The notes beneath the pieces were generated by a model that was not told the DNA's origin, ran no database searches, and worked only from the letters and a program-made list of their open reading frames with translations. 46,257 nucleotides of DNA from Bacteroidaceae bacterium (GTDB taxonomy: Bacteria > Bacteroidota > Bacteroidia > Bacteroidales > Bacteroidaceae), in assembly GCA_017936265.1 (NCBI GenBank), contig JAGBFX010000055.1, positions 1 through 46,257 of the forward strand. Reading direction: 5' to 3'. This document shows, in pieces, positions 27,946-46,080 of this stretch; position 1 is the first letter of the stretch; every line of letters begins with the position of its first letter. The translations under genes and the position numbers were made by a program.

Positions 27946-28094
27946 TGTACTCTGTACTCTGTGCTCTGTTCTCTGTACTCTATACTCTGTACTCTGTACT
28001 TGGCGTTCTTGAGATCCTTCGCTGCACTCCAGGATGACAAGTACGCGAGTATTGTACTCTGTTCTCTGTTATCTGTACTCTGTTATCTGTTCTC
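27946..28094. repeat. Heptad tandem array (TGTACTC units) in two blocks
   Basis: Eight degenerate 7-bp units (TGTACTC, with TGTGCTC, TGTTCTC and TATACTC variants) fill 27946-28001, and six more (including TGTTATC) fill 28053-28094. Each block is preceded by GTACGCGAGTAT (from 27934 and from 28041). Because 7 is not a multiple of 3, the array opens spurious reading frames, and I call no gene in it. The second block ends at the stop of the 28094-29659 gene. Confidence 0.85.
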
Positions 28095-29684: not shown

Positions 29685-30206
29685 TCAGAATCCGATTTCC
29701 ATTCCGTTCTCACCAAGGGTCTTGAACGAATCATATGGAAGCCCTGCAATGAATACTACAGTCAATTCATCACCTTCATCATTTATCACAAGAGTGTTCC
29801 CCGAATCGCCGTATATTGCGGTCATCGTTCCACCCTCTCTATTCAGCGCCATAAGCTTCATACCCATTACACTCTCCTCTTCTTGCAGGAATATGTCCAT
29901 GACCTGTGAAAGCAGTTTGTATCCCTCAGGGCCTGTAGCAGTGAATTGCCGCATGCTTCTTATTGATGTCAACTGCAAGGGGATAGCATTCAACTCCCCA
30001 TCTGCCCCCAGCATTTTGAACATCTGTCTGAACATACTCGACGAGATATATGCGTAATCAATCTCGTCGGACTTTATTTGTGCCACTCTCTTTATATACA
30101 TTTCGGCCTCGCTTTTTCCATCATTTTGCGGTATATGCCCTGTGGCAAAGGCAGAACCGGCAAAAAGCACAAGTGCAAACAATGTTGTTAAAATGTACCG
30201 TTTCAT
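29685..30206 (-). CDS. DUF4252 domain secreted protein
   Basis: The 173-residue protein has a signal peptide (MKRYILTTLFALVLFAGSAFA). EIDYAYISSSMFRQMFKMLG, LTSIRSMRQFTATGPEGYKL and NTLVINDEGDELTVVFIAGL fit the DUF4252 family, which in Bacteroidota is typically encoded directly behind an ECF sigma factor and its anti-sigma factor. That is the arrangement here: it follows the anti-sigma gene by 7 bp. The family has no proven biochemical role; its position suggests an envelope output or feedback component of the sigma circuit. Confidence 0.82.
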   Translation of the reverse strand: MKRYILTTLFALVLFAGSAFATGHIPQNDGKSEAEMYIKRVAQIKSDEIDYAYISSSMFRQMFKMLGADGELNAIPLQLTSIRSMRQFTATGPEGYKLLSQVMDIFLQEEESVMGMKLMALNREGGTMTAIYGDSGNTLVINDEGDELTVVFIAGLPYDSFKTLGENGMEIGF

Positions 30207-30213
30207 AATTCAA

Positions 30214-30792
30214 TTATTGAATGTTTATTTTTATCATATTTTTATACGGAGCAACAGCCTTGTTCAAGTTGTTCTCCATTTTGCGTGTATTTTTGTGTGT
30301 TGTATTTACTACAAGCATCATATTTTCAAATGCGCCCTTGAAACACTCCATTGCATCCTCGGGATTGTCGAAAGTATCCTCCTCGGCAAACTCGGCAACA
30401 ACAGTTTGCTGCTTTTCATGCGACTGAACATTCTCATCCATAAATATATAACCCACAGCCAACAGAGCAACAGCTGCCGCACCATGCCACACAAGGCGAG
30501 GAATCTTAAAAATGCGTCTTTTTGCTCCACCGGCATCACGCTCATCGGAGACATCAGGCACCTCATCCTCGGCAAGAGTGTCAAGCATCGCCTCAAGACG
30601 CACCTCGGCACCTGAGGGCAACACAGCCTCATGCTCCTCGCCGCAAAGTGCGATTATAGCCTCCTTGTCCTTACGGAGTTCGGCAGGAACATCATGCTCG
30701 CGCAGGTAGCAGCATAGTTCGCGCTCCTCCTCAACAGACAGCTCGGCATTGAAGAACCGCTCTATCATTATGTCCAGTTTCTCTTTTTCCAT
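30214..30792 (-). CDS. Anti-sigma factor, single transmembrane helix
   Basis: The protein has 192 residues from the ATG at 30792. A TTG two codons upstream (30798) is possible, but AAAGGAG lies 7 bp before the ATG and supports it. The N-terminal cytoplasmic part (about 1-105) is acidic and helical, begins EKLDIMIERFFNAELSVEEE as anti-sigma domains of this kind do, and is followed by one transmembrane helix (LVWHGAAAVALLAVGYIFM, about 101-120) and a short periplasmic domain with a basic end. It probably holds the ECF factor at the membrane until a periplasmic signal releases it. It follows the sigma gene by 12 bp. Confidence 0.75.
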   Translation of the reverse strand: MEKEKLDIMIERFFNAELSVEEERELCCYLREHDVPAELRKDKEAIIALCGEEHEAVLPSGAEVRLEAMLDTLAEDEVPDVSDERDAGGAKRRIFKIPRLVWHGAAAVALLAVGYIFMDENVQSHEKQQTVVAEFAEEDTFDNPEDAMECFKGAFENMMLVVNTTHKNTRKMENNLNKAVAPYKNMIKINIQ

Positions 30793-30804
30793 AATCAAAC
30801 TCCT

Positions 30805-31290
30805 TTATAGGTTATCGTAAAACTCTCTGAATCTTTTTCTTACCCTTGATACAATTACCCTGATATTGGCTTGCGAAAGCCCGGTAACACCCTCAATCTC
30901 CTCGAAGCTACAGCCGTTCATCCTCATCTGCATCACGCGGCTGTAGTGTTGAGGGAGGCCAGCCAGAAACTTTTCAAGACATTCATCGGCCTCGCGCCGT
31001 TCAATCTCAGGCGGCGAACTTCCGGCCACATCATCGGCCAGTATCTCCCCCACCTCATCATGGCTCCTTATCACTCTCCAGCGGTCTACACATATATTCT
31101 TCAATAAGGTGCGGCAATAAGCCTCGGGAGCCACGATATTTTTCAGTTCATCCTTCCTCTCCCACAACTTGAGATATAGATTCTGCACAGCATCCTCTGC
31201 CTCAAAGCTGTCGCAAAGCATTCTGAACGCTTCGCGATAGAGCATCTTCTGCAGCGGTAAGAACCGCCTTTTGAATTCTGTGTGTGTCAT
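30805..31290 (-). CDS. ECF RNA polymerase sigma factor
   Basis: This 161-residue sigma-70-family protein has region 2 (AFRMLCDSFEAEDAVQNLYL, then LKLWERKDEL) for -10 recognition and region 4 (LPQHYSRVMQMRMNGCSFEE, LSQANIRVIVSRVRKRFREF) for -35 recognition. It lacks regions 1 and 3, as ECF factors do. It heads the operon with the anti-sigma and two DUF4252-type genes. An ECF-like promoter (TGTAAC-N16-CGTC) lies at 31511-31542, which implies autoregulation. An almost identical promoter lies in front of the thioredoxin array at 43266-43297. The leader of about 215 nt contains two tandem copies of a dispersed repeat. Confidence 0.93.
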   Translation of the reverse strand: MTHTEFKRRFLPLQKMLYREAFRMLCDSFEAEDAVQNLYLKLWERKDELKNIVAPEAYCRTLLKNICVDRWRVIRSHDEVGEILADDVAGSSPPEIERREADECLEKFLAGLPQHYSRVMQMRMNGCSFEEIEGVTGLSQANIRVIVSRVRKRFREFYDNL

Positions 31291-31325
31291 TTATCTCAAT
31301 GTTTGCGTAAACTGCGAACATAGCC

Positions 31326-31474
31326 TGCACTCGCTGTGAAAAACATTAAAGCAAGCTTGATGTTTCTCGCTCGTTTGTTGCTATATTTGAGCTAACGCTC
31401 GAATATTTTCTGCACTCGCTGTGAAAAACATTAAAGCAAGCTTGATGTTTCTCGCTCGTTTGTTGCTATATTTG
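31326..31474 (+). repeat. Two direct copies of a 64-bp promoter-bearing repeat
   Basis: Units 31326-31389 and 31411-31474 are nearly identical. They begin TGCACTCGCTGTGAAAAACA, run through CAAGCTTGATG and end TTGCTATATTTG, which contains a consensus -7 box TATATTTG. Between them lies GAGCTAACGCTCGAATATTT. An inverted copy of the unit including this spacer is at 32607-32700. They sit in the sigma gene leader but point away from it. Confidence 0.8.
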
Positions 31475-31510: not shown

Positions 31511-31542
31511 CTATAAGACGGAAAATATGCGGATTTGTTACA
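31511..31542 (-). promoter_or_regulatory. ECF-type promoter of the sigma factor operon
   Basis: On the minus strand TGTAAC (31537-31542) is followed after exactly 16 bp by CGTCTTATAG (31511-31520). It is 31/37 identical, over a wider window, to the sequence upstream of the thioredoxin array (43264-43300), with the same spacing. The AAC and CGTC cores are typical of ECF promoters. Confidence 0.6.
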
Positions 31543-31652
31543 ACGTAGAACAAAAAAAATTAAATAAAAAAAGAATCTGATAAAGAAAATCTTATGGACA
31601 ACACAACACTGACAATAGCCCAGAAGAAGAGAAGGCTATTAAAAACAAGAAA

Positions 31653-31677
31653 CTCCTGCAACGCAGTGTTGCAGGAG
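31653..31677 (-). terminator. Terminator between gene remnant and sigma operon
   Basis: Perfect 10-bp arms (CTCCTGCAAC 31653-31662, GTTGCAGGAG 31668-31677) with a 5-nt loop. On the minus strand a T-rich stretch follows (TTTCTTGTTTTTAAT). It lies 17 bp after the stop of the thioredoxin-tail remnant, like a 3' end kept with that gene. Confidence 0.65.
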
Positions 31678-31693
31678 CCTCTGGACTCGTTGT

Positions 31694-31780
31694 TTAAGAC
31701 AACAATGCTTTTATAAGGTTTTCAAATGCATCAAGGTCTCTTGGGTCGGCATTTACATCAAGCATATTGCCGTAGCGGTC
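31694..31780 (-). pseudogene. C-terminal remnant of a thioredoxin-array gene
   Basis: The minus strand reads DRYGNMLDVNADPRDLDAFE then NLIKALLS and a stop at 31694-31696. The intact array gene at 44026-46050 ends DRNGNLLDVNADPRNLDAFE then NLIKALKKE. Similarity stops abruptly upstream of this segment, where a perfect GCCGTAGCG/CGCTACGGC inverted repeat (31769-31788) sits at the boundary. The remaining gap up to 31899 has one more weak hairpin (31837-31861) and no gene. It shows that an array gene once ended here, directly upstream of the ECF sigma promoter. Confidence 0.75.
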
Positions 31781-31899
31781 GCTACGGCTACACTTGTCTT
31801 TGCATCTAAGTACCGCATTTGTCATCGGGCATCTTGTTGGTAGTAGAAAGTTCTACCAACTTATCTTTGTTAATTTTTCTCAGAATTCAGCGTGTTAGA

Positions 31900-32265
31900 T
31901 TACAGCATACAAGCCCAACCGAACTTTCGTGCAATTTCTTTTAGCAGGTTGCGGTCGCGTACAGGGATAATCACCTCCACTGTTTCGTTCTCATTGCTAC
32001 GAGATGCAATGTTGGCCGTATCAAGGTCATACTGTGTCTGCATATTCATCAACACATCAGCAGGAACGCCAAGAACTTTCTCGATAGCAACAGCAACACT
32101 CAACGATACAGAACGCTTGCCATTGATTGTCTCGCTCAAGACAGATGCCTTGATTCCAGACTCTGCGGCCAACTGCTTCTGCGTCATCTTTCTCTCTTTC
32201 AGCTCATCCTTTATCAGTTCTCCCGGGTGAGTGGCTACAAACGGTGTCAAACTTTCCTTATTCAT
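31900..32265 (-). CDS. higA: HigA-type antitoxin, XRE helix-turn-helix
   Basis: The 121-residue protein begins MNKESLTPFVATHPGELIKD; 'HPGE.I..EL' is the HigA signature, and the XRE helix-turn-helix is at about 25-55 (MTQKQLAAESGIKASVLSET). Typical HigA-family sequence continues to about residue 80. The C-terminal tail (EVIIPVRDRNLLKEIARKFG) may be a toxin-contact segment. Its ATG overlaps the toxin stop by 8 nt. An in-frame ATG at 32283 would extend further into the toxin gene. The antitoxin normally neutralises the toxin and represses the operon. Confidence 0.85.
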   Translation of the reverse strand: MNKESLTPFVATHPGELIKDELKERKMTQKQLAAESGIKASVLSETINGKRSVSLSVAVAIEKVLGVPADVLMNMQTQYDLDTANIASRSNENETVEVIIPVRDRNLLKEIARKFGWACML

Positions 32266-32575
32266 AATGTTTCGATATTTCAAATAATAAAGCGTTAACT
32301 ACGATACCTTCTTCGTCGGGAGAACTGTTGAACAGCAAGCGATACTGTCTGTTTATCCATACGGCATCAACACCGTTCAAGTCTCCCTTTTTCTTCTCAT
32401 AATGAAGTGATTTAATGTAATAAAGGTCTTCTATGCGACGGGCAGCCCTTATATAGTTCACAACCTTTACATATTGCTTTACGACATCCTTTGCCAATTT
32501 ACGGTAGCGGCTGTCCGTTGTTGTGCCACTTACATATAGTTCCTCTAATGAAACATCTTCAAATACTATATTCAT
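32258..32575 (-). CDS. higB: HigB/RelE-like mRNA-interferase toxin
   Basis: The 105-residue protein contains LAKDVVKQYVKVVNYIRAAR, IEDLYYIKSLHYEKKKGDLN and GVDAVWINRQYRLLF. The basic body and 'SLH.EKL.G.L.G..SI.IN.QYR..F' pattern are those of HigB toxins, ribosome-dependent mRNA interferases. Toxin precedes antitoxin, the usual order for higBA. The consensus promoter lies in an inverted copy of a dispersed repeat at 32607-32700. No symbol can be more exact without a family search. Confidence 0.83.
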   Translation of the reverse strand: MNIVFEDVSLEELYVSGTTTDSRYRKLAKDVVKQYVKVVNYIRAARRIEDLYYIKSLHYEKKKGDLNGVDAVWINRQYRLLFNSSPDEEGIVVNALLFEISKHYE

Positions 32576-32606
32576 TGTAATAACAATTCTATTAGCAATA
32601 CGACTG

Positions 32607-32700
32607 CAAATATAATAACAAACGAGCGAGAAACATCAAGCTTGCTTTAATGTTTTTCACAGCGAGTGCAGAAAATATTCGAGCGTTAGCTCAAATATAC
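32607..32700 (-). repeat. Inverted copy of the promoter-bearing repeat, driving higBA
   Basis: This is the reverse-oriented counterpart of 31326-31474. On the minus strand it reads GAGCTAACGCTCGAATATTT, TGCACTCGCTGTGAAAAACA and ends TATTATATTTG. The consensus -7 box TATATTTG (32607-32614) has CTTG 22 bp upstream (32637-32640) and lies 32 bp before the toxin ATG. So the repeat itself supplies the higBA promoter. Confidence 0.75.
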
Positions 32701-32987
32701 GAATAATTTTGAACAATTCGCAAATTTGCTAATTTTTTCTACATATACACTTCCATACCGTTTATCTCGAATATGCAAATATCGCGCACAGTGCGTATTT
32801 GACCTCGTCGAAGTTGCTTTTACTCACTTTGAAAGCTAAAACAAGTTTGGCTTTCATTCGCTTACTCACAACATTCCCGGCTATCGAGCAGCTTAATACG
32901 GCGAGTGCCTTTGTAGAAATCGTACCGCTGTGACATTGCATTTTCTATGTATTTTCTATGCGCACGTAAAAAATAATAAAACAATTA
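32701..32987. other. Spacer with degenerate repeat, no gene
   Basis: 32820-32875 (TACTCACTTTGAAAGC... to ...GCTTTCATTCGCTTACTC) has the layout of the repeat at 31326 in a diverged form. No open frame or hairpin terminator for higBA or enolase is evident. Confidence 0.4.
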
Positions 32988-34268
<1,281 letters not shown>

Positions 34269-34406
34269 TTAACGTAAGTTTGATATAACAATTAGTACTG
34301 TAATCTAGCGTATTTGTTGAGTTTACGTTCTTTTTACAATCTAATACTGAAATACAAACGCTTGGAAAGAAAGTTTGTTGTACTGACACTATAAAAAAGA
34401 AACTTG

Positions 34407-34444
34407 CTTCTTCAGCAAAGAGTTTATTTGCAGCAGCAAGCCTT
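34407..34444 (-). repeat. 38-bp copy of the neighbouring paralogue's 3' end
   Basis: The segment is identical to 36184-36221, the last codons of the gene at 36181-37911 (LLLQINSLLKK). It lies directly behind the stop of the gene at 34449 and is in the same reading phase, after tandem stops TGA-TGA-TAA. An open frame on the minus strand at 34237-34452 is a by-product of this copy. Confidence 0.85.
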
Positions 34445-34448
34445 ATCA

Positions 34449-36116
34449 TCAAGGCAGATATTCAATAACCATTGTGTGGTTCATATCACGGTGCAACGTG
34501 CCATTCATATCTATGATGCAAGAGAATGGAATGCCTATAAAACGAAGTTTTGCCTGAAGGTACTCCCAATCTTTGCTACTGATGTATATGTGTTCTCCTT
34601 CAATGTATGTTTTGCCAAGCCACTCTTCCGATGATTCGCGATACTTATCCTCGGTGATATACAGGAACTTTACGGGCTTCCCTTGCATATCCTTTATGAA
34701 ATTGCGTTGCTCCATCATAGTTGCACGGCAGGGACCACATCCCATATTCCAGAAATCGAGAAAAAGCACATTACCTTTGTATGGAGCTATAATGCGTTGT
34801 ATCACAGGGTCGAAGGCAAGGTTTTCCTCGGGAGTCGTCTTTACCTCAAACTTTTTCACATACTCACGATAGGCCTTTGTAAAATGGTGACTTAATATGG
34901 GACTTGTGATATATGGCATAGTACCCGCCACATAGGATGCCACATAGTCGGGTGTATTCTCGTGCTCTTTTATTTTAAAACCGAATATACCACGCATCAT
35001 ACACCATTGCCCCATAAAGCTATTTGCAGATAGTCCTGTCGCTTTTGAAGAACACTCCATCGCAAGCGACCAATAATCACTTACGGTCAAGAGGGTATCG
35101 TTGCGCATCGGTAGTACAGCCTGCAAGAATTGAGCATCGTAATCAGTGGGCATAACAAACCCGAAAGCATAGTCTTGAATTTCCTGCGAGGTGCCGCCTG
35201 TAACCGGTAACACAATCTCGTTTGAATAGAATTTAAGTTCTTCATAAATTCCAAATTCTGCACAATTTACAAGAGAACCAGCCACTGAATATAACAGCGC
35301 CTTCGGATTGTCGAGAAGCCTTTTTTCGTGCTTCTTCAGGAACTTGTAAAACCATTTGTTGTCAAGCGGCTCAAAGGTCTCGTTTTTCACAGGAACGGTA
35401 CGCCCACTAATTGAATCGAATTCAGGATAAAAAGCCGTATAGTTGTACATACTCCGTAAAGACATCATCATATACAGACCTTCGTAAATTGCATCGTTCT
35501 TTATTATTTCGGCAGCAATGGGGTTGATATCTGCGGGGAGAACAAAGCACCCTTCGTCAATATCCTTCATCACCTTTTCCATAACCTTGCCCGTGTTGCG
35601 GCAATAGTCCTCCACAGCCTTGCGTCCTTGCTTGTATATGCGTGAATGTTCGCTCAAGTCACCATAAGGACTCTTGGCATAAGGTTCCACGATTATGGGA
35701 CGACAACGATCTACCCAGTAACAAATGCTGCCGGGTGCTACGGAAGTGCTGCGTGCTGCCACATCTACAGAGAGTGTCACAGTGTCGCCTACAAAGAAAT
35801 AGAGGTCGTTGGGGAGCGGACCGGTGTAACTATCGGCACGCAGATATACTGTTGTACTATGTGGCACATATACATCGCTTGCAAATGTTCCGTCTGCATC
35901 TACTTTAACAAGAGAATTTACCTCTGTATTTGTAAATTCATTCCTAAAAATGAGAAGTATCTGCTTTGGAAAATCCTGCGATGTGCCATTTGTGAATTGC
36001 CCGTTGAAATGCACGGTACCACTACGGTAGTGATAGTCAGTTACCACAGAATTCCCCTGCGCAAAGCCACACAGGGTGACAAATGCAGATAATAATGTCA
36101 GTAATCTCTTTTTCAT
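34449..36116 (-). CDS. Secreted thioredoxin-fold protein, array type A (CGPC)
   Basis: The 555-residue protein has a signal peptide (MKKRLLTLLSAFVTLCGFAQ), a roughly 130-residue beta-rich N-terminal domain, a helical middle (SPYGDLSEHSRIYKQGRKAV) and a C-terminal thioredoxin fold with CGPC at 460-463 (FLDFWNMGCGPCRATMMEQR). The usual Trp before CGPC is Gly. The cis-proline is kept (FIGIPFSCIID). Closest paralogue in the window: 40041-41723. It ends about 8 residues earlier than that paralogue, and a copy of the next gene's tail follows the stop in phase, suggesting recombination at the 3' end. Expected role: periplasmic or surface disulfide/redox chemistry; substrate unknown. Confidence 0.78.
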   Translation of the reverse strand: MKKRLLTLLSAFVTLCGFAQGNSVVTDYHYRSGTVHFNGQFTNGTSQDFPKQILLIFRNEFTNTEVNSLVKVDADGTFASDVYVPHSTTVYLRADSYTGPLPNDLYFFVGDTVTLSVDVAARSTSVAPGSICYWVDRCRPIIVEPYAKSPYGDLSEHSRIYKQGRKAVEDYCRNTGKVMEKVMKDIDEGCFVLPADINPIAAEIIKNDAIYEGLYMMMSLRSMYNYTAFYPEFDSISGRTVPVKNETFEPLDNKWFYKFLKKHEKRLLDNPKALLYSVAGSLVNCAEFGIYEELKFYSNEIVLPVTGGTSQEIQDYAFGFVMPTDYDAQFLQAVLPMRNDTLLTVSDYWSLAMECSSKATGLSANSFMGQWCMMRGIFGFKIKEHENTPDYVASYVAGTMPYITSPILSHHFTKAYREYVKKFEVKTTPEENLAFDPVIQRIIAPYKGNVLFLDFWNMGCGPCRATMMEQRNFIKDMQGKPVKFLYITEDKYRESSEEWLGKTYIEGEHIYISSKDWEYLQAKLRFIGIPFSCIIDMNGTLHRDMNHTMVIEYLP

Positions 36117-36167
36117 ATTGTGTTTTGTTTTTCAGTTTAAATTTCAAATGCAATTATGTCATTTCAA

Positions 36168-36178
36168 TTATAAGACGG
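36168..36178 (-). promoter_or_regulatory. Isolated ECF -10-like element before the type A gene
   Basis: On the minus strand CGTCTTATA matches the -10 part of the two ECF-type promoters, 50 bp before the ATG at 36116. The -35 position falls in the 3' end of the upstream gene and does not read TGTAAC. It is perhaps a decayed internal promoter or chance. Confidence 0.25.
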
Positions 36179-36180
36179 AC

Positions 36181-37911
36181 TTACTTCTTCAGCAAAGAGT
36201 TTATTTGCAGCAGCAAGCCTTCTCCTGAGGATGGCGATTCGGCATCCGTGGTTACCAGCCGGCCCTCCTTGTCATACAATATATATGTGGGATATGCAGT
36301 CACATTCCATAATTCATTGAGCAGCAGCTGCTGTTCCATTGGCAGGTTGTAGTGATATACATTGTCGCCTGTTATGTTGTTCTCTTTGATTACATTCTTC
36401 CACGATACTTCATCGGAACTGTAGGCAAAATAGAGAAATACCACATCCTTGTCTTTCAGAGCCTCCTTTATTGCAGGGGCGTGTTTCATCTCTTCCCTGC
36501 ACGGTCCGCACCAGGTGCCCCATACGTCAATGTATATTACCTTGCCTTTATGCGGAGCAAGAATAGCATTCAACAGCGAATCGGTCTCGGAAATCTCGCC
36601 TACTTCGGGTTTGTTTACTGCGATTTTCTCCTCGGATATACGTCTGTAATGTTCCATCCGCTTCTCTATCAGTTCAATGAAGAAACGGTTCTCAATATTC
36701 TCTTTCACAACATTCCACCCATCAGGGCACTGCATCCCCGATGTATTGTCCAAGTAATACATCATGTAGGATGCGTTGATGAAATCCTTCTCGCTCTTTG
36801 GAATTGGATACGCATCGGTAAATTCACAATTAAGACGGAAACTCAGTGTCATCATAAGGTTCATTGCGCTGTCGGGCTGTTGCTCCACTAAGGATTCAAG
36901 TTTGTGAACCTCGACAATGGAATCGGTAAAGGCTAAGTCCTCTTGGTATGGAGCAAGGAATGTCTCGGCCTGCTCTTCGGTAGCGCCGTTGCTCTTCTTT
37001 GCGAGTGCTCCGGCACGGGCTGTCCAGGCACGCCTGAAGGAGTGGCTTCTTTCGGCCGGGACATCAATGAGTCCCCTGCACCTCAATTCCTCGGCAATCA
37101 AATATAAAGGAGTGGGAGTCCAAGGCATATAAGGATAAAGATTCTCAACTTGCATGTGTTGGTCAATATCCACATAACGGTCTATCCACAAAGTGTACGG
37201 TGGCAGGCTCGCTTTCCACATCTCATCTATGAAAGCGAAATACTCCGCTGTAGGCGGTTCGGGAGTATTGTCACAACAGTAACGAGTAGAATAGTAAAGG
37301 GCAAGCGATGTTATGTAACCGCGCATCAAGGGATATATTTGTCTCTTCAGAGGAGTAGTTCCACAGAGCAGTCTGTCGAGCGTAGCCACTGAACCGTTGT
37401 AGAACTCCCTGCAACGACGCAGATGTTCCTGCGGCTCCATTGTGTCATGAATGGGGTGAAGGCGTAAAGCGCGTGATTCCACTTCCCACCCGGTGATGAA
37501 AGTTTCGTAACGGGCAAGTTCGTTGTTTATTGGAGCATTGTCGCCATCGAAAGTGACGCTTGCACCATCGCACACCACCTGTAGTGTATCGCCACCGTTG
37601 GCAAGCATCTTGAATTTGCGTCCTCCAATATACAGGTCGAGCAGCGTAGCATTATATACAGGGAGTGTGAATGAAAAATAACCCTGCTCATCAGGCTCAA
37701 AGAAAATCTTGCCATACTCGCACATATCCTTTAAATAGCCCACATACGCCTCACGGTCGGTGTCATGGAATTTCTTTACCGTTCCCTTCACGTGTACACT
37801 ATCCAAGGCGTACTCATTCTTTATAAACGAATCCGTTCCTGTCTTCAATGAAGCACATGATGCAAGCAATACCACTGCCGGCAGCAAAAGTGATTTTAAA
37901 ATCCTATTCAT
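36181..37911 (-). CDS. Thioredoxin-fold lipoprotein, array type B (CGPC)
   Basis: The 576-residue protein starts MNRILKSLLLPAVVLLASC with lipobox LAS-C, the only lipidated member of the array. The middle is helical. The thioredoxin fold has CGPC at 468-471 (DVWGTWCGPCREEMKH), followed by FLYFAYSSDEVSWKNVIKEN, GDNVYHYNLPMEQQ and cis-Pro in TAYPTYILYDKEG. Closest relatives in the window are 37935-40019 and 44026-46050. Starts at 37935 or 37947 overlap the upstream stop (TAATG) and would allow translational coupling; I prefer 37911 because it gives a compact lipoprotein signal. It is probably membrane-tethered in the periplasm. Confidence 0.78.
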   Translation of the reverse strand: MNRILKSLLLPAVVLLASCASLKTGTDSFIKNEYALDSVHVKGTVKKFHDTDREAYVGYLKDMCEYGKIFFEPDEQGYFSFTLPVYNATLLDLYIGGRKFKMLANGGDTLQVVCDGASVTFDGDNAPINNELARYETFITGWEVESRALRLHPIHDTMEPQEHLRRCREFYNGSVATLDRLLCGTTPLKRQIYPLMRGYITSLALYYSTRYCCDNTPEPPTAEYFAFIDEMWKASLPPYTLWIDRYVDIDQHMQVENLYPYMPWTPTPLYLIAEELRCRGLIDVPAERSHSFRRAWTARAGALAKKSNGATEEQAETFLAPYQEDLAFTDSIVEVHKLESLVEQQPDSAMNLMMTLSFRLNCEFTDAYPIPKSEKDFINASYMMYYLDNTSGMQCPDGWNVVKENIENRFFIELIEKRMEHYRRISEEKIAVNKPEVGEISETDSLLNAILAPHKGKVIYIDVWGTWCGPCREEMKHAPAIKEALKDKDVVFLYFAYSSDEVSWKNVIKENNITGDNVYHYNLPMEQQLLLNELWNVTAYPTYILYDKEGRLVTTDAESPSSGEGLLLQINSLLKK

Positions 37912-37934
37912 CTGTATTTTCGCATAATTGTCCA

Positions 37935-40019
37935 TTACTCCAAACATTTATTTATTTCATTAATCAATGCATCTAAATATTGTGGGAACGGCGCATCGGA
38001 ACTGACCAACTTTCCGTTCTTGTCAAATAGGATGAATGTGGGGAACCTTGTGACTCCCAACAGTCGCTCAATAGACTCCTGCTGCTCATAAGGCAGATTA
38101 TAATGGAATATATTATCACCGTAAAGCCCCAGTTTCTTTACAATCACCTGGCGGACATCTTCGGGAGTGTTGTTCGCAAAATAGAGATAGACGACATCCT
38201 TGCCTTTAAGTTCATCCTTGACCGCTTGCATATGTTTCAGCTGTTCCTTGCACGGTCCGCACCACGAACCCCAGAAATCGGCATATACCACCTTTCCGCG
38301 ATGTGGTTCAAGAATTGTTGCAAGCAATGAATCGGCAACAAGGGTCTCAGGGGTAAGGTCGGCATAATTACGCAAATACCTAACTTCGAGTTCTCCGGCT
38401 TCCAAGCGACGGAGATAATTGTTCTGTTCAACAATCACCTGTGCAGGAGCGAAATCTTCAAGCCCCTCCATTGCTGCCGATATTATAGTATCATTTACAG
38501 ACTTCTCTTCTTCTGCAAGCTGATTATATGTAAGCAAAGAAATTGCATATTTGCAATCCTCGGCAGGCAGGTGCAAATCTTCAACGTAGCGACGAGTCTT
38601 CATAATATCGCCAATCAACATACAGTTCTGTTTATTCCACAAAGGCAGAGTATCGACCTTGTACTTTTCGCATATCTGTGTATAGCGTTTGTCCACAGAC
38701 TCAAGCCTTTCCACTCTTTTCTTCGCGCTTATGGTATCGCTGACTTTATCCATCGCCAAAGCCAGTTGCAGACTTATAAGGTATTCGTACTCATTTAAGA
38801 TGCTTTTCTCTTTTTTGCTAAGTTTGATGACACCCAACCGGTCCAGTTCAAGCAATGCGGCTTTGTCGGGCCAATTGATTCGCACTCCCAAGCCGTTGTC
38901 ATCGCAATAACTCACATAACTCTTCAACATATATGTAGTGTACCTACCCAATGTAAGCGGGTTAGGAATATCGGTTGACAGTTCTTTTACAAGCATAATC
39001 AAGTCTTCGGGAGCTTCTTCCAGTTTGCGTCTCCTGAGCATACTCCACATTGCATCCAATTGCTCTGCCTTTATATTGGTCCTGTAAAAATATGCAGCCC
39101 TTTCATCAAAGCCCGGGTGCTCTTCGATATATTTCTGCAGGCGTATAAGATGGCGTTTGAGAGTACCTTCGGTATATTTATAAAAAAGACTGAGTGGCGA
39201 CAGATTATATGAAACCGGCGAATCATATATTCCGTTCTCTCTGTCATAGCTGTAATATTCCATAATACTCTTCTGCAAGACAGTATCACTCACCATTATT
39301 TCAGGCACGCTATTGTTGCCGTCATAAATGACCTTTACAGTATCACCGGGCCAAGCCAGCACAGGATATGCTTTTCTACCGACCTTAAGGTAGAAACATG
39401 TAGCATTGAATACAGGGAATGTGTATGTGAAATCATCTGTGAATTCGCAATCCCTATCCTCGAAACCAAATGGATTGAAGAGAACAACAGGATCGTTGCT
39501 GTTTTTAATTTCACACTCCACCCTTATGCTGTCATGTACGTAATTACCAATAAAGGGCGATTGTGTCACCTTGCCCCATTTCTTGTCTTTACCGATTACC
39601 TCTTTCAGACTGTATTCTTTCAATGATACGCCTTTCAGGTTCCAACCGCTCTTGCCACCGTCGAAATCAAAAGAGAGGTCTTCCTTGTCCAATGGCTCAA
39701 AATGGAGAACTCCTTTCATAAAGCCACTTTCAGGCAGATTTGTCGCCTGCCCAATCTCAACGCCCTCGCTACGCAATAGCTTATAACGCTTGCCTGTCGT
39801 GTTACCGACAAGCACGGCATCCGCATCGACGGTTATGTTGTCAACTGCATAAAAATAGACCTCAAGAACGGTAGTTTCCTTATCGGCAATAACCTTTGAA
39901 ATATCAAAGATTCGGGTATTTATACTCTCGTAGTAGGGATATTCTACAGATATACTCTTTTGCGCAAAGCTACATACGGTGGTAAACGCAACGATTAAGG
40001 TTAATACAAGTTTCTTCAT
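37935..40019 (-). CDS. Secreted thioredoxin-fold protein, array type B, longest N-terminus
   Basis: The 694-residue protein has a signal peptide (MKKLVLTLIVAFTTVCSFAQ), a beta-rich N-terminal domain about 150 residues longer than in its relatives, a helical middle, and a thioredoxin fold with CGPC at 587-590 (ADFWGSWCGPCKEQLKHMQA). YLYFANNTPEDV, GDNIFHYNLPYEQQ and cis-Pro in TRFPTFILFDKNGK follow. It starts 21 bp after the gene at 40041 and overlaps or abuts the next, so it is mid-operon. The N-terminal part differs strongly from its type B relatives although the catalytic domain is close. Confidence 0.78.
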   Translation of the reverse strand: MKKLVLTLIVAFTTVCSFAQKSISVEYPYYESINTRIFDISKVIADKETTVLEVYFYAVDNITVDADAVLVGNTTGKRYKLLRSEGVEIGQATNLPESGFMKGVLHFEPLDKEDLSFDFDGGKSGWNLKGVSLKEYSLKEVIGKDKKWGKVTQSPFIGNYVHDSIRVECEIKNSNDPVVLFNPFGFEDRDCEFTDDFTYTFPVFNATCFYLKVGRKAYPVLAWPGDTVKVIYDGNNSVPEIMVSDTVLQKSIMEYYSYDRENGIYDSPVSYNLSPLSLFYKYTEGTLKRHLIRLQKYIEEHPGFDERAAYFYRTNIKAEQLDAMWSMLRRRKLEEAPEDLIMLVKELSTDIPNPLTLGRYTTYMLKSYVSYCDDNGLGVRINWPDKAALLELDRLGVIKLSKKEKSILNEYEYLISLQLALAMDKVSDTISAKKRVERLESVDKRYTQICEKYKVDTLPLWNKQNCMLIGDIMKTRRYVEDLHLPAEDCKYAISLLTYNQLAEEEKSVNDTIISAAMEGLEDFAPAQVIVEQNNYLRRLEAGELEVRYLRNYADLTPETLVADSLLATILEPHRGKVVYADFWGSWCGPCKEQLKHMQAVKDELKGKDVVYLYFANNTPEDVRQVIVKKLGLYGDNIFHYNLPYEQQESIERLLGVTRFPTFILFDKNGKLVSSDAPFPQYLDALINEINKCLE

Positions 40020-40040
40020 ATCGTTTATTCAAACATTTTA

Positions 40041-41723
40041 TCATTTCAACAACTCTTCAATCTCCTTTTCAAGTGCATTGACATCATGCGAAGCTTCATG
40101 TACAAATCCATTGGTATCTATGAGCACAAGAGCCGGTGTACCTGTGAAATTGAATATTCCTTTGAAAGCGGTCCAATCGCGTTCGTCGACAAACAGAGCC
40201 TCGCCATTTATACCTTTCTCTTTCAACCATTGTGTTGAATGCTCTACATCGTCATATTCGGTAGAGGCAATATAGATGAATTTCACCGGTTTTCCTTTCA
40301 TCCGTTCAACAAGTTCACGTTGCTCAAGCATCCCAGCACGGCAAGGGCCACAGCCATATGACCAAAAATCAAGAAACAACACATTACCCTTGTATGGTGA
40401 CAATACACGGTCTGCAACCTCATTGGCAAAAGCATTCAACATAGGAACAACAGTATTTTCGTTGGCAATAGCGTGCTTGCGATAGAGTTCCAGAAAATGG
40501 TGTGCCACAACCGGGTCTGTTATAAACGGCATTGCAGCCTTTGCTTTTTCGGTAATGTATTTGTCGCCGTCAACCCCATCAAAGTGTTGCCCGAATACAT
40601 ATAAGGTCAACGCCATCTGTGACAGGAACGAGGATGAAGATACACCATACATTTCGTATATATTTTCAAATCCTTGGCGAATTCTATCTCTCTGTGTATA
40701 TAATGTATCGCCACTCAACGGCAATGCTTTTTCAAGGAAGCCATCACGGTACTCACGTGGCAAAATGTGCCACAAAGCATAATCAGCGACATCCTGTTCT
40801 GTACCGGCAGGGGCATAGGCCGTAGCCCCGTGGTACAATGGTGCATAAATGGTATTTCTCAAAGAGTTGAAAAGTGCCCAGAATGTACTTGAGTTAAACA
40901 GAATAGAAGGATTGTCGAACAGATCCTTTTCGTATTTCTTAAAGAACTTCTTTAACTTGCGTAGGTCAAGCGGCTTGACTGTTGCGTTTTTCACGACCTC
41001 TTTGTATTCTCCTGCCGTTTCGTCATATACAAGAGAACTTCCCGACGAGAAACGCCATGCTTCCAAAAGTTCGACAATATTGGACAAACCTTTAAAAAGG
41101 ATGTTACACTTTACCATTTCGCACGCGAGTGGCGACAAGGAATCAGGTAACTCAACCTTTCCACGACTGATGTCCTTTATCGTCTGTTCCATAATATCGA
41201 TATTGCGTTCTATTGCCCATTGTATTGTATCGCGATTCCCATCTTTGGAATATACATAGGGCTGTGACAAATCGCCATAAGGGCTATCGGCGTAATACGT
41301 GTTAATTTCATTCTGCGATTCTGTAAAGATGTCCGCCAAATGATTATTCCTGCTATTCAATACATAGTCATCAGGAGTGAATACCGCTTCCAATGTATCA
41401 CCGACAGAGAGGAGTGGAATTATAGTATGTGGCGATGCATCAATAAAACATATTTGCGAGTGTGGCAGTTTTACAATACCACAGAATGTGCCATCAGCAT
41501 TCACCTTAACGAGTTGGTTTTGGTTTTGCAAAGAAAAGTAGTCCATTACGTTTGCCACCACATACTGTGGCATTTCGCTTTGTGAATAGTTCTCGAAACG
41601 GCCTTTAAAAACAACATCACCACCACGGAACATATAATCATTGAACTGTCCGTGGTCAATGGCCTGTGCAAAGCCACATACGGTGGCAAATGCAACGACA
41701 AGGGTTAAGAATAGTTTTTTCAT
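40041..41723 (-). CDS. Secreted thioredoxin-fold protein, array type A (CGPC)
   Basis: The 560-residue protein has a signal peptide (MKKLFLTLVVAFATVCGFAQ) that is nearly identical, also in DNA, to that of the gene at 41880. SPYGDLSQPYVYSKDGNRDT and DISRGKVELPDSLSPLACEM in the middle match the type A gene at 34449. CGPC is at 458-461 (LDFWSYGCGPCRAGMLEQRE), again with Gly before CGPC, and cis-Pro is in TGTPALVLIDTNG. A dispersed hairpin repeat separates it from the gene at 41880. Confidence 0.78.
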   Translation of the reverse strand: MKKLFLTLVVAFATVCGFAQAIDHGQFNDYMFRGGDVVFKGRFENYSQSEMPQYVVANVMDYFSLQNQNQLVKVNADGTFCGIVKLPHSQICFIDASPHTIIPLLSVGDTLEAVFTPDDYVLNSRNNHLADIFTESQNEINTYYADSPYGDLSQPYVYSKDGNRDTIQWAIERNIDIMEQTIKDISRGKVELPDSLSPLACEMVKCNILFKGLSNIVELLEAWRFSSGSSLVYDETAGEYKEVVKNATVKPLDLRKLKKFFKKYEKDLFDNPSILFNSSTFWALFNSLRNTIYAPLYHGATAYAPAGTEQDVADYALWHILPREYRDGFLEKALPLSGDTLYTQRDRIRQGFENIYEMYGVSSSSFLSQMALTLYVFGQHFDGVDGDKYITEKAKAAMPFITDPVVAHHFLELYRKHAIANENTVVPMLNAFANEVADRVLSPYKGNVLFLDFWSYGCGPCRAGMLEQRELVERMKGKPVKFIYIASTEYDDVEHSTQWLKEKGINGEALFVDERDWTAFKGIFNFTGTPALVLIDTNGFVHEASHDVNALEKEIEELLK

Positions 41724-41761
41724 TGTATTTTATGGTAATGAACTATAATACTCAGCGCAGA

Positions 41762-41832
41762 TGTCATATCGACCGTATGGGAGATATCTCATAAGTTGTT
41801 TTAGAGGTCCCTCACTGCGTATCGGGATGACA
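41762..41832. repeat. Dispersed hairpin repeat inside the thioredoxin array
   Basis: A third copy of the TGTCAT...GGGATGACA repeat, with GAGATATCTCATAA and GAGGTCCCTCACTGCG. It lies in the 155-bp gap between two array genes and may end or process the transcript there. Confidence 0.7.
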
Positions 41833-41879
41833 TACTCGCTGGGGCAACTGCTATATTGTTGTTGTATTTTATAATTAAA

Positions 41880-43148
41880 TTATAATCTTTCTTTTAGTAT
41901 CTGTTCTACCTCCTCGGCGGTTGCTCCTATTACAAGAATAGTTCCGTCTTTATCTACAAGGAACACCTCTCCGGCACCCCTAATGCCGTACCGTTCCCAA
42001 ATATTGTCCACACCTCGCAGTGCGAGCAGGTTCAGCCAAGGATAACCGTCTTTCTCCACTGCAAGCCTCATATCTTCGCTTTCCAATTCGCTTGCCACTC
42101 CAACGACAGTGAATCCCTTATCCTTGTATTTGTTGTACAATGGAATGAAGCTCATAGACGTCCGTCTGCAAGGACCACACCACGATGCCCAGAAGTCAAC
42201 AATGGCAATCTTCCCCTCAATCTCTTTTGAAAGGGTGTGTTTTGCTCCATTGAGGTCAGGAAGAGTAAAGTCAATTATTCGTGAGCCTACACGCACATCC
42301 ATCGATGACACCCAATTCCGCAAGGCTATTGCCATATTATTTGTGGGATACCTGGCATCATACACACGCTTGAACACATCCACGTATGGCTGTTTGGTGG
42401 CATTGTCCTTGTTATAAAGCCTGTATCTTACCTGGTCGAGCAGATAGAGACCTACCATACCGGGATAATTCATGATATAATCAAGTTCATAGGCATACAT
42501 CTCTTTCCTTAGCTTTTCGCCTTTCTCCATAAATACCTTGTACTCCTGTGTATAAAAGCGGTTTTCTTTCTCTAACAGCTCTATTTTCTCGCTAAGGCTA
42601 TTTAACGAATCGCGGTCTTCACATTCATCGTACAGTTTCTTGAGTGCTGCCCCTTCAGCTGTCAAAAGTTTGCCTGCCTTCTCTAAAACCTCCTCTTCTT
42701 GTCTCATTGGAATGTAGAATCTCTCTTCTATACTTTTATTATAGGCAAGCAACTCTTTGTTGAGTGGTGTCTCCGAATGCAGTGTAGGACGCGGAGCATC
42801 GTCTATTGCATAGCCATAGAACGTCGCATAAACATCTCCCTCCTCGGCAAAGAAGTCAAGTGTCATCCAACAACCATTGTTGTAATCCTCACAAGCAAAC
42901 AGCTGATAGAATTCAGGTTCGTCGATATAAAGGTCGTACGAGAAATGCCCATCCTTAACCCAGATAGTATCGACCGGTACTACTCTTGGGTCGCCGTTAC
43001 CAATCATGAGTAATATACGTGTAAAAGTACTCTCTTTTACCTCGCCCTCAATGTGACAATGTAGTTTTTTGTTATAGTCTATGCTCTCCTGTGCAAAGCC
43101 ACATACAGTGACAAATGCAACGATTAAGGTTAAAAATAGTTTTTTCAT
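41880..43148 (-). CDS. DUF4369-TlpA-like thioredoxin protein lacking the cis-proline
   Basis: The 422-residue protein has a signal peptide (MKKLFLTLIVAFVTVCGFAQ), a DUF4369-like beta domain (about 25-120), a helical linker and a TlpA-type domain with CGPC at 324-327 (IVDFWASWCGPCRRTSMSFI). The conserved cis-proline before the last strands, normally 'YGIRGIPHTFLID', reads YGIRGAGEVFLVDKDG here, so Pro is Gly at about residue 393. This loop shapes substrate and disulfide specificity in thioredoxin folds. It is the shortest array member and the only one with a plain TlpA layout. The start at 43187 would precede the signal peptide and is rejected. An ECF-type promoter lies 118 bp upstream. Confidence 0.82.
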   Translation of the reverse strand: MKKLFLTLIVAFVTVCGFAQESIDYNKKLHCHIEGEVKESTFTRILLMIGNGDPRVVPVDTIWVKDGHFSYDLYIDEPEFYQLFACEDYNNGCWMTLDFFAEEGDVYATFYGYAIDDAPRPTLHSETPLNKELLAYNKSIEERFYIPMRQEEEVLEKAGKLLTAEGAALKKLYDECEDRDSLNSLSEKIELLEKENRFYTQEYKVFMEKGEKLRKEMYAYELDYIMNYPGMVGLYLLDQVRYRLYNKDNATKQPYVDVFKRVYDARYPTNNMAIALRNWVSSMDVRVGSRIIDFTLPDLNGAKHTLSKEIEGKIAIVDFWASWCGPCRRTSMSFIPLYNKYKDKGFTVVGVASELESEDMRLAVEKDGYPWLNLLALRGVDNIWERYGIRGAGEVFLVDKDGTILVIGATAEEVEQILKERL

Positions 43149-43265
43149 ATTATTCGGTTTATTTTGAATCTGTTTAAAATTTTGCAATTATAATAATATC
43201 GGCTAACAGTTTCACCCCCCCCTGTTAATAAATGTTAATATAGCATATAAAGCGAATGTTTATAC

Positions 43266-43297
43266 CTATAAGACGGATAGGATGCCTATTTGTTACA
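43266..43297 (-). promoter_or_regulatory. ECF-type promoter of the thioredoxin array
   Basis: On the minus strand TGTAAC (43292-43297), 16 bp, CGTCTTATAG (43266-43275). Core elements and spacing are identical to the sigma operon promoter at 31511-31542. Downstream genes 43148 to 34449 could form one long transcript. Confidence 0.6.
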
Positions 43298-43450: not shown

Positions 43451-44023
43451 TCAACCATAGAGAAAAGCATAGTACCACATTAACATAAAATTGGCTACAA
43501 TCAGCAGGCATAAAGCAAGAGCAGTTCCAATAGTCCAAACTATCTTCGTTTTTTTACTCTCTTTTTCAAAAACTGCAAAATAATTCAAATAGCGGTCCTT
43601 CTTCCAATATACCAAATGGCCTATTATCCACGAAGGAACAATTCCCAAACCGACAACAAGGAGCAAGTGCCTTCCTACAATGTCATATGCTTGTGGCCCA
43701 TAGCAAATCATCCAAATATTAATCACCAAATAAAAAGGTAAAGCAAACAACAGCAATGCAAGACCGGTCAGACAGTATAGTGTAAACCCCGATGCAGGGT
43801 GGTCTAAGGTCTTATACAACCCACTTCTCGTCCAATCCTTGTATTCCTTGAATGTATTAATTCCATATTTCTCTTTCAATCGCCTCTTCCAGAAGGGCAA
43901 ACAATACAACGGTCGTTGCACCAATAATTCAACTGCTGCATATATAGGTAATCCGGAGAAATACATCAGATTGTACAACGAGTACAACAACCTGTTCAAG
44001 AATTTGTCTATATTGTCTTTCAT
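43451..44023 (-). CDS. Membrane protein of unknown family inside the thioredoxin array
   Basis: The 190-residue protein has a hydrophobic N-terminal segment (YFSGLPIYAAVELLVQRPLY) and three clear transmembrane helices: about 78-107 (TLYCLTGLALLLFALPFYLV), 115-140 (HLLLVVGLGIVPSWIIGHLV) and 163-188 (IGTALALCLLIVANFMLMWY). A basic loop (FWKRRLKEKYGINTFKEYKD) lies between the first segments. I recognise no family. It starts 2 bp after the stop of the gene at 44026, so they are cotranslated, and it is the only non-thioredoxin gene in the array. It might hold or supply reductant to its neighbour; that is inference from position only. Confidence 0.65.
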   Translation of the reverse strand: MKDNIDKFLNRLLYSLYNLMYFSGLPIYAAVELLVQRPLYCLPFWKRRLKEKYGINTFKEYKDWTRSGLYKTLDHPASGFTLYCLTGLALLLFALPFYLVINIWMICYGPQAYDIVGRHLLLVVGLGIVPSWIIGHLVYWKKDRYLNYFAVFEKESKKTKIVWTIGTALALCLLIVANFMLMWYYAFLYG

Positions 44024-44025
44024 TT

Positions 44026-46050
44026 CTATTCTTTCTTCAACGCCTTTATAAGGTTTTCAAAAGCATCAAGGTTACGTGGGTCGGCATTGACATCGAGCAA
44101 ATTTCCGTTGCGGTCGATGAGCCTGTATGTGGGGTAACTGTTTACTCTGAGGAAACGCTCCACAGCACTCTGCTGCTCGCCGGGCAAGTTGTAATGCACC
44201 ACGTTGTCGCCTGTGACATTGTACTCCTTTATTACATTTTTCCAGCTATCCTCATCGCTGTTGTTTGCAAGGTAAAGGAACACTATATCATACGGCGCCA
44301 TTCTCTCATACAGTTCCTTACTGTGCGAAAGAGCCCGTTTGCAAGGACCGCACCAGGTACCCCACACATCGACCAATACAAACTTGCCTTTGTATGGCTC
44401 TATGAGCTTGCGTAGAATCTTCTCGCCGTCACTCATTTCCTTAACCTCGTCGTTAGTTTTCAGGCTTTCGCCACCTGATAGAGCACGACGTTGCAAAGCA
44501 AGATATCTGTTCTGCATCTCCAGCACTGTGTTTATTGCAGCCGGTGTCGATATGTTCTTCTCTGCCCACTCTATCACATCTGCCGGTAGGGGAATGCGGC
44601 GGTTGTTTATTTCGTTCCAGATGATTCCGGCCATATAAATATCGTATATCTCCTTGTTGTTTGGCAGACTGCTTATCGCATGCTGCGGAATTTTGACAGC
44701 AAATTCCCTTATTATTGCATCGGCATTACTGTTCCACACATCGTTTATAATATACACGATTTCACTATTATTGAATTCGCTTATAAGTTTTTCTCTCTCC
44801 GCGTCATCGTCAAGTGTTGCAAGTTGTGCCTTCATCTTTTCAAGTTCACTGTCGTAACGTTTCACGGCACATGCCTGTTTCTCATCGAGCGAGATTGTTC
44901 CACATGCTGCAAGACGTTGCAATGTCTTTCCCACAGCGCCTTCCTGTTCTGGCATATTCTGTACTTTATAATTCATATAATCGGTCAAGAAACGGAGATA
45001 GTCGCGATAGAGGCTTTTGGGGCTGCACAACGTTGAAAATCCATCGGTAGATAATGGTGAAATCATACTGTTCCAAAGAGAGTCGGCAAAGGCGATATAT
45101 TCTGCCGGCAGTTTGTCGCCTTCAACATAGTACATCCCCTGCATAAGGCTCTCGCCCATCCCGGCACGATAATAGCCAGTGAGATAGTCGATATATCGGC
45201 GCGACAACATGGGGTGCTCCTCTACTCTCTTTTGCAGTTCGGCATTATATCGACGTCCGCACTCCTTTACGTGGTGCAAGAACTCCATAGCCTGCTCCTG
45301 CGTGGCATGGTCGTGCTCTATGCGCTCGTTCATAAATGAAGCCGGATAGGCTGTCAACTCATTTTGCAGGCGCACATCATTGCCCATAAAGAGTTTCTGC
45401 CCAGTGCCGAAATCGTGGAGAAAGAAATATGTCTCCCCCGGCTCAAGCACTGTTCTCACCATTGTTCTTTTCCAACCAACAAACACCTGCGAGGTATTCT
45501 GTAACGGCATTTTTAGTGTAAAACGTCCCAATGAATCCATTTTTGCATACAATGACAAACCGCCGGGTTCGCGTGTAACAACATTATGTACCATTACCTC
45601 GAACTCATTTCCGCCTCTTTGCAAGGCCTCGGCAGGCATATCCTTTAGCCAGCCGATTATTGTAACACTGTCGCCTAAGGCGTAACCGTTGTCCTTGAAG
45701 CCTACGCGAGTATCCTTCACAGGGTAATCGGGCAATGTGGCGGTGGTTATGGGGCTGCACTTAACAGCCTTTGAATTGCCTACGGTGATTGTGCGTGTGC
45801 CTTTTTTCATCTTGCCCACCTTTATGCCAAGCACATCGTCGCCATTGACAACGGTGAGAGTATAACCACCACGTTTCTCTGTCATTGACTTTATATCCCA
45901 AAAGCGTGAATCGTAGATAACATGCTCGCGGGCAAAACCAATGAGCCAATCGCCTGTGGCATTGTTACGCCAATAGGTGTTTGCTATTTCCTGTGCAAAA
46001 CCACACATAGTGGTAAGCGCAAATAAGATGGTAAATAATCTCTTTTTCAT
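44026..46050 (-). CDS. Secreted thioredoxin-fold protein, array type B (CGPC)
   Basis: The 674-residue protein has a signal peptide (MKKRLFTILFALTTMCGFAQ), a beta-rich N-terminal part (ANTYWRNNATGDWLIGFARE), a long helical middle (about 240-530) and a thioredoxin fold with CGPC at 567-570 (LVDVWGTWCGPCKRALSHSK). FLYLANNSDEDSWKNVIKEY, GDNVVHYNLPGEQQ and cis-Pro in NSYPTYRLIDRNGN place it with the type B genes at 36181 and 37935. Its last 29 residues are duplicated as a remnant at 31694-31780. It starts 30 bp after the stop of another thioredoxin-like gene that enters from the right. Confidence 0.78.
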   Translation of the reverse strand: MKKRLFTILFALTTMCGFAQEIANTYWRNNATGDWLIGFAREHVIYDSRFWDIKSMTEKRGGYTLTVVNGDDVLGIKVGKMKKGTRTITVGNSKAVKCSPITTATLPDYPVKDTRVGFKDNGYALGDSVTIIGWLKDMPAEALQRGGNEFEVMVHNVVTREPGGLSLYAKMDSLGRFTLKMPLQNTSQVFVGWKRTMVRTVLEPGETYFFLHDFGTGQKLFMGNDVRLQNELTAYPASFMNERIEHDHATQEQAMEFLHHVKECGRRYNAELQKRVEEHPMLSRRYIDYLTGYYRAGMGESLMQGMYYVEGDKLPAEYIAFADSLWNSMISPLSTDGFSTLCSPKSLYRDYLRFLTDYMNYKVQNMPEQEGAVGKTLQRLAACGTISLDEKQACAVKRYDSELEKMKAQLATLDDDAEREKLISEFNNSEIVYIINDVWNSNADAIIREFAVKIPQHAISSLPNNKEIYDIYMAGIIWNEINNRRIPLPADVIEWAEKNISTPAAINTVLEMQNRYLALQRRALSGGESLKTNDEVKEMSDGEKILRKLIEPYKGKFVLVDVWGTWCGPCKRALSHSKELYERMAPYDIVFLYLANNSDEDSWKNVIKEYNVTGDNVVHYNLPGEQQSAVERFLRVNSYPTYRLIDRNGNLLDVNADPRNLDAFENLIKALKKE

Positions 46051-46080
46051 TGTATGCCAGATTTCAGGTTTTACTTACAA

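Follow-up and report, generated by a model that had tools for sequence, protein, structure and literature searches.

A shared ECF-type promoter element at a sigma factor operon and a thioredoxin-fold gene array of a Bacteroidaceae bacterium: likely autoregulation and array control

Introduction

The stretch of DNA considered here, hereafter the window, comprises the 46,257 nucleotides of contig JAGBFX010000055.1 from an uncultured gut bacterium of the Bacteroidaceae (assembly GCA_017936265.1). Its minus strand carries an operon headed by an extracytoplasmic function (ECF) sigma factor gene and, at a distance, an array of genes for thioredoxin-fold proteins, and an element of the form TGTAAC-N16-CGTC precedes both. 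An earlier note on this DNA had proposed that the sigma factor acts through both elements and thereby regulates itself and the array. We consider this reading likely: conserved sites at related sigma loci support it, as do the kinds of genes behind 68 sites in congeneric genomes and a -35 base that varies together in sigma and target promoters.

Genes and promoter elements of the locus

The two elements and the genes around them are as follows.

31511-31542, minus strand: putative autoregulatory ECF-type promoter of the sigma operon, TGTAAC-N16-CGTCTTATAG; a similar element lies upstream of 26 of 29 related sigma loci
30805-31290, minus strand: ECF sigma factor, PG0214/GFO_1088 family (NF058625; Pfam Sigma70_r2 and Sigma70_r4_2)
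30214-30798, minus strand: probable anti-sigma factor, directly after the sigma gene (weak NF052375 match)
29685-30206, minus strand: DUF4252-like exported protein (PF14060 below cut-off; relatives in congeneric sigma loci)
28094-29659, minus strand: longer protein encoded next after the DUF4252-like gene and resembling its product in part
43266-43297, minus strand: predicted matching promoter of the thioredoxin-fold array (motif and matrix score; its head, that is, promoter, leader and signal peptide, is copied at site C54)
41880-43148, minus strand: array gene 1, secreted DUF4369 and redoxin/thioredoxin protein (Pfam; signal peptide MKKLFLTLIVAFVTVCGFAQ)
40041-41723, minus strand: array gene 2, secreted thioredoxin-fold protein (Thioredoxin_8 above cut-off)
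37935-40019, minus strand: array gene 3, secreted thioredoxin-fold protein (Thioredoxin_8 above cut-off)
36181-37947, minus strand: array gene 4, thioredoxin-fold protein (Thioredoxin_8 above cut-off)
34449-36116, minus strand: array gene 5, secreted thioredoxin-fold protein (Pfam; missing here in the nearest relative)
44026-46050, minus strand: thioredoxin-fold gene upstream of the array promoter and not driven by it (CGPC motif)

The window sigma factor is a member of the already known PG0214/GFO_1088 family, scoring 137 bits against NF058625 (cut-off 130). The protein encoded next to it matches the anti-sigma profile NF052375 weakly (29.7 bits; cut-off 100), and its description as an envelope-sensing anti-sigma factor draws on gene order, this weak match and a hydrophobic stretch seen by eye. 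The DUF4252 outputs proposed earlier do have relatives in congeneric sigma loci, but the match of 29685-30206 to PF14060 (17.9 bits, E 0.0035) lies below the Pfam cut-off of 23.9, and a structure prediction gave a mean predicted local distance difference test (pLDDT) score of 54.6. In the array, Thioredoxin_8 was found above cut-off in all five window genes scanned (array genes 1 to 5) and in a further gene of the same genome at site C42. Array gene 1 probably starts at ATG 43148 rather than at TTG 43187 of the mechanical open reading frame (ORF).

The two minus-strand elements reported in the earlier note are present exactly as described, reading TGTAACAAATCCGCATATTTTCCGTCTTATAG at 31511-31542 and TGTAACAAATAGGCATCCTATCCGTCTTATAG at 43266-43297. 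A 40-nt segment around them is 83% identical, in line with the 31/37 given before. Two occurrences of TGTAAC-N16-CGTC in the window compare with 0.07 expected by shuffling, and two were also reached in 1 of 100 shuffles. A matrix derived from 18 sites that lie upstream of sigma genes in other genomes gives the elements scores of 39.6 and 35.7, against a best score of 14.7 in 20 Markov nulls (scored only where at least one of three core triplets was present); no other position in the window exceeds 6 in a matrix scan for a third promoter. The statement that the second element lies before the array genes holds for five of the six thioredoxin-fold genes and fails for 44026-46050, which, like 43451-44023, lies upstream of it; no promoter site occurs in the 207 nt of upstream sequence of 44026-46050, up to the contig end.

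The sigma promoter lies about 225 nt from its gene because a dispersed repeat is present twice in between. In the array leader, a run of 8 G (43215-43222, minus strand) is the only G/C run of at least 7 in the window, and 12 sites, here and in other genomes, are followed by a run of 6 to 8 G, in most cases after TTAACA; these poly-G tracts are candidate slippage tracts and may add slippage control.

Sites in the genome of the window

Genome G000, to which the window belongs (2.40 Mb, 62 contigs, 87% complete), contains the full form TGTAAC-N16-CGTCTTATAG four times, and the reversed control none. All four sites precede either the sigma gene or genes with signal-peptide-like starts: apart from the two window sites, one lies about 400 nt before a secreted thioredoxin-fold gene, behind repeats (C42), and one before the gene of a secreted protein with a TonB_C domain (C54). 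A related form with three mismatches allowed returned the same four sites (reversed control 6). A looser form adds C52, before a gene that is N-terminally similar to outer-membrane beta-barrel genes. The bare core was tried as a genome-wide marker and rejected: TGTAAC-N15-18-CGTC gave 26 sites against 58 in the reversed control, and the genome scan for TGTAAC-N16-CGTC that had been proposed as a check is thus not specific by itself.

Among the 14 sigma-70 region-2 genes examined of the 15 in this genome, only the window sigma gene and an ECF gene at C48 have the core upstream. One might suppose that another ECF factor, such as that of C48, reads the array promoters and that nothing beyond a core is shared with the window sigma factor. 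The C48 gene indeed has TGTAACC-N16-CGTCTATTAG just upstream of its start, but the base after TGTAAC is A in the array sites and the window sigma promoter and C in C48, and the sigma-derived matrix gives the C48 site 14.0 against 35.7 for the array site. At the C48 gene (L184), two TGTAACC-N16-CGTC sites point away from each other with 26 nt between them (C48:2555-2580 and 2607-2632) and may mark a second regulon.

Conservation of the site at related sigma loci

The operon was located in congeneric genomes by its probable anti-sigma protein, which has matches in 30 of 44 genomes at E 0.001, and the sigma gene adjoins the probable anti-sigma gene in all 30 fetched loci, one per genome. TGTNRC-N16-CGTC lies upstream of the sigma gene in 26 of the 29 loci that have upstream sequence, as TGTAAC-N16-CGTC in 19 (within 400 nt; Markov mean 0.004), as TGTT(A/G)C-N16-CGTC in 6 and as TGTCAC-N16-CGTC in 1. 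All 19 TGTAAC-type loci show a spacing of 16, and none of the other spacings tried, 12-15 and 17-21, was found upstream of congeneric sigma loci. A TGTAAC site is also present in loci L088-L091, which are most likely the same as G023:C22, G007:C63, G020:C25 and G004:C5 and add no evidence.

In the wider family, 27 of the best-scoring 30 PG0214-family loci from 249 genomes have the core some 40 nt ahead of the gene, these 30 being the top of a longer list and from few genera. The spacer is 16 in 23 of them and 17 in 4, and TTT rather than AAA follows TGTAAC in nearly all of the best-scoring loci. A core that several ECF factors share in this way would favor the reading of the array promoters by another sigma factor.

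The likeness of the promoters might also be a mere by-product of duplicated head DNA, with no common regulator behind it. The C54 and window heads agree in 95% of 227 aligned columns, identity between site and ATG is 87% when gaps are counted, and repeats adjoin the sigma and C42 sites. However, in divergent genomes the sigma-upstream sites have the -35, the -10 and the spacing in common while spacer and flanks differ, the spacing of 16 is invariant as described above, and different head types with different leaders all keep TGTAAC-N16-CGTC, a form that the search required. We regard this by-product explanation as very improbable.

The sigma gene's own promoter matches those of its putative targets and is kept across species, as is characteristic of an autoregulated ECF regulon.

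Genes downstream of the sites

TGTAACA-N15-CGTCWWW occurs at 68 sites in 28 of the 44 genomes searched (reversed control 33), whereas the same motif with spacers of 17-19 occurs at 31 sites together. The sites, their conservation, the genes behind them and, as described below, the co-varying -35 base and the heads common to unrelated proteins are computed results; the genes were assigned to classes by hand. A window-type sigma gene follows 20 of the 68 sites and an array-type gene 21; of the latter, 12 pass a thioredoxin hidden Markov model (HMM) made from proteins of the window genome, 3 are of the DUF5041 type and 6 are partial or contig-cut genes placed by their start or promoter. The other sites precede outer-membrane or plug-type genes (8), small lipoproteins (4) and other apparently exported proteins (8), with 1 orphan promoter and 6 sites without clear assignment.

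Signal-peptide-like starts are found, by a crude heuristic, in 38 of 47 non-sigma downstream ORFs as compared with 39 of 84 background ORFs. Pfam applied to 10 downstream proteins returned Thioredoxin_8, TonB_C, CarboxypepD_reg with OMP_b-brl_3, DUF5041, CotH with a ricin-type lectin domain, and C92 peptidase; for 4 of these proteins nothing exceeded the cut-off. Genes preceded by the site go beyond the array and include TonB_C, outer-membrane beta-barrel, DUF5041 and small lipoprotein genes.

In G017, the promoter at L146 (G017:C89) is identical to the sigma promoter of G024 and has no sigma gene behind it; G017 is without a sigma gene, and this orphan promoter is possibly a leftover after operon loss.

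Co-variation of the -35 base

Six genomes (G008, G014, G029, G036, G040, and G042) have TGTT(A/G)C before the sigma gene, and the target-type sites of these genomes read TGTTAC in 4 of 5 cases. Each of these four directly precedes a gene: at G040:C129 and G042:C4 the product is a secreted thioredoxin-fold protein, at G036:C21 it is a thioredoxin-fold protein whose start is lipoprotein-like, and at G008:C36 the gene is of the outer-membrane type. The G040 protein is 90% identical over 466 residues to the window protein of 34449-36116.

The 20 genomes with a TGTAAC sigma promoter contain 37 further TGTAAC sites and 1 TGTTAC site, which lies inside a frame. In contrast, the 6 genomes with a TGTT(A/G)C sigma promoter contain 1 TGTAAC site and 6 further TGTTAC sites, of which 4 precede a thioredoxin-fold (3) or outer-membrane-type (1) gene and 2 lie inside frames. 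Fisher's test on these non-sigma sites by genome type gives p 5.9e-6 unfiltered, 4.5e-5 with a mixed filter and 6e-4 after every site inside a frame of at least 150 codons is dropped (counts 31, 0, 1 and 3), the numbers being small and shared ancestry ignored by the test.

This pattern, in which target promoters follow the -35 base of the window-type sigma promoter across genomes with one exception, speaks against another ECF factor at the array promoters. So does the occurrence of non-sigma sites in 13 of 26 genomes with the window-type sigma factor but in 2 of 18 without it (p 0.008; sets assigned by hand). Control of the array by a factor such as that of C48 thus seems improbable to us.

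In the sigma proteins, an alignment read by eye shows R-V-[I/M] in all 18 aligned TGTAAC types and in none of the 7 TGTT(A/G)C or TGTCAC types, at a position that we take to be the region 4 helix-turn-helix.

Several observations weigh against autoregulation and array control by the window sigma factor. The search for TGTTACA-N15-CGTCWWW is not enriched, giving 13 sites in 8 of 44 genomes against 23 in the reversed control, and the case for co-variation consequently rests on where the sites lie. Five of these 13 are sigma promoters (that of G040 reads TGTTGC, outside the search pattern), one in G020 and two in G040 fall within frames, and one precedes an OmpH-like gene of G005, a genome in which the search gave no sigma gene. 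The G036:C21 site is also inside open frames on both strands. G014 is the exception just mentioned, its sigma promoter being of the TGTT type and its sole array-type site TGTAAC. G001 and G032 (85% and 83% complete) have array-type sites and no sigma gene at E 1e-30, while G004 has the most sites, yet its sigma gene carries an internal stop in the assembly. Three sigma relatives of 38-41% identity (L084, L085, L087) are without the motif upstream. A one-column alignment test picked reference residues 16, 115 and 159, not the R-V-[I/M] pair, and as a general specificity rule R-V-[I/M] was rejected because it fails outside the genus, where family members with TGTAACTTT promoters have K-V-N. Finally, the genomes share ancestry, and all counts and p values overstate independence.

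Proposed exchange of heads

In G004, a DUF5041 gene and a thioredoxin-fold gene are identical over 83/83 nt from site to ATG and their signal-peptide DNA is 92% identical, whereas the mature parts are 50% identical, against a shuffled mean of 52.7%. Conversely, the mature parts of the G004 and G025 DUF5041 proteins show 98% identity, while the site-to-ATG regions of their genes are 42% identical and differ in length (83 and 147 nt). In 8 pairs with similar heads and dissimilar mature parts, chosen by hand and sharing genes, the similarity stops at frame positions +61 to +63, the end of the 60-nt signal peptide. Promoter, leader and signal peptide thus appear to form one unit common to unrelated mature proteins.

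Such a head may move by recombination onto unrelated mature proteins (thioredoxin-fold, DUF5041, TonB_C) and either recruit them to one ECF regulon or place them at operon-internal positions, with poly-G tracts perhaps adding slippage control; we regard this proposal as evenly balanced. Array gene 5 is a case of interest. It is absent at the same place in the nearest relative (L088), as a clean indel between 46-nt direct repeats, and the window copy keeps a 64-nt leader common with a G004 gene bearing the full promoter; it therefore seems that this gene, now internal, shed its promoter when it entered the operon. The repeats concerned are listed below.

43088-43154, minus strand: signal-peptide-coding direct repeat, 1 of 5, family D1
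36056-36122, 39959-40025, 41663-41729 and 45990-46056: other four copies of the family D1 repeat
34402-34447, strand not assigned: 46-nt direct repeat bounding array gene 5; other copy at 36179-36224

Other features of the window

The region around the sigma promoter contains further repeats and small genes.

31315-31474, minus strand: two tandem copies of the dispersed repeat between sigma promoter and sigma gene; one copy in the nearest relative L088

This repeat is about 75-100 nt long, and its core occurs in 12 genome copies (at most 3 mismatches). The sigma leader with its two copies folds better than shuffled sequences (z -3.25). A third window copy lies inverted at 32607-32706, 1.1 kb from those in the leader. 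An invertible sigma promoter between the 100-nt inverted repeats 31375-31474 and 32607-32706 was considered but is not borne out, as L088 is without the second arm and shows the segment in unchanged orientation.

A stretch of 79 nt directly ahead of the sigma promoter (31703-31781) shares 86% identity with the 3' part of 44026-46050, a thioredoxin-fold gene, and is likely what remains of an array gene. In G002, about 40 nt separate the end of a thioredoxin-fold gene from the sigma promoter that follows. Two small genes between enolase and the sigma promoter (31900-32575) resemble, by eye, a HigB/HigA-type toxin-antitoxin pair. A small lipoprotein (26189-26746) is by eye related to promoter-bearing lipoproteins of G009, G025, G032, and G038, and its gene has no promoter site in the window. 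Searches of the window for tRNAs and, at the gathering threshold, for Rfam families gave no match.

Relation to known systems

In Porphyromonas gingivalis, PG_0214-PG_0218 are reported to be raised together in a PG_0686 mutant (PMC10101095). These genes and the similar PG_0985-PG_0987 resemble the window in having genes for a sigma factor, a probable anti-sigma factor and DUF4252-type or DUF4252-like proteins in a row. In contrast to the window, no secreted thioredoxin-fold array with the same promoter is mentioned for these operons in the passages considered, and the window's DUF4252 match is below the Pfam cut-off. A PG0985 mutant grew and survived more poorly with hydrogen peroxide, and PG0214 is not named for this effect in the passage considered (review PMC9862357). 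This sensitivity makes a thiol or oxidative envelope signal a reasonable guess, though nothing firmer.

Bacteroides thetaiotaomicron SigR-1 and SigH-1 (ECF114) are associated with thioredoxins and oxidative stress, according to PMC12596196, and are similar to the window sigma factor in being Bacteroidaceae ECF factors with thioredoxin-type genes in their network. However, the ECF114 model SigH is listed without an anti-sigma factor in PMC8999054, whereas the window sigma factor has a probable one. According to papers that cite it, EcfO of Bacteroides fragilis is also an ECF sigma factor linked to oxidative stress.

The array proteins are similar to TlpA/ResA-type periplasmic thiol-disulfide oxidoreductases in their C-terminal Thioredoxin_8/redoxin domain with CGPC, and differ from them in their long N-terminal parts, array layout and repeated signal-peptide heads; three array-type proteins scanned against NCBIfam ResA and TlpA fell below the cut-offs. 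No report of this regulon content or of head exchange was found in the openly licensed literature searched.

Concluding remarks

We propose that the sigma factor of 30805-31290 would direct RNA polymerase to TGTAAC-N16-CGTC promoters. Via 31511-31542 it would amplify its own operon, comprising the sigma factor, the probable anti-sigma factor and the DUF4252-like proteins. Via 43266-43297, together with two or three other genomic sites, it would switch on exported proteins, namely those of the five-gene thioredoxin-fold array, a sixth such gene, the secreted TonB_C protein and probably the outer-membrane beta-barrel protein. Before its release by an envelope or thiol/oxidative signal, the sigma factor would presumably be held at the inner membrane by the anti-sigma factor, and target genes could join or change regulation by exchange of the promoter-leader-signal peptide head. 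Transcription from the sites, control by the anti-sigma factor, the signal and the function of the thioredoxin-fold proteins are predictions in this scheme.

With this scheme, a Bacteroidaceae sigma family that is widespread but little studied would have a defined promoter and a coherent group of exported targets, and sigma-promoter pairs become available for testing. If heads do move as proposed, exchanging promoter and signal peptide as one unit would offer bacteria an easy route to changing the exported proteins that respond to a stress signal.

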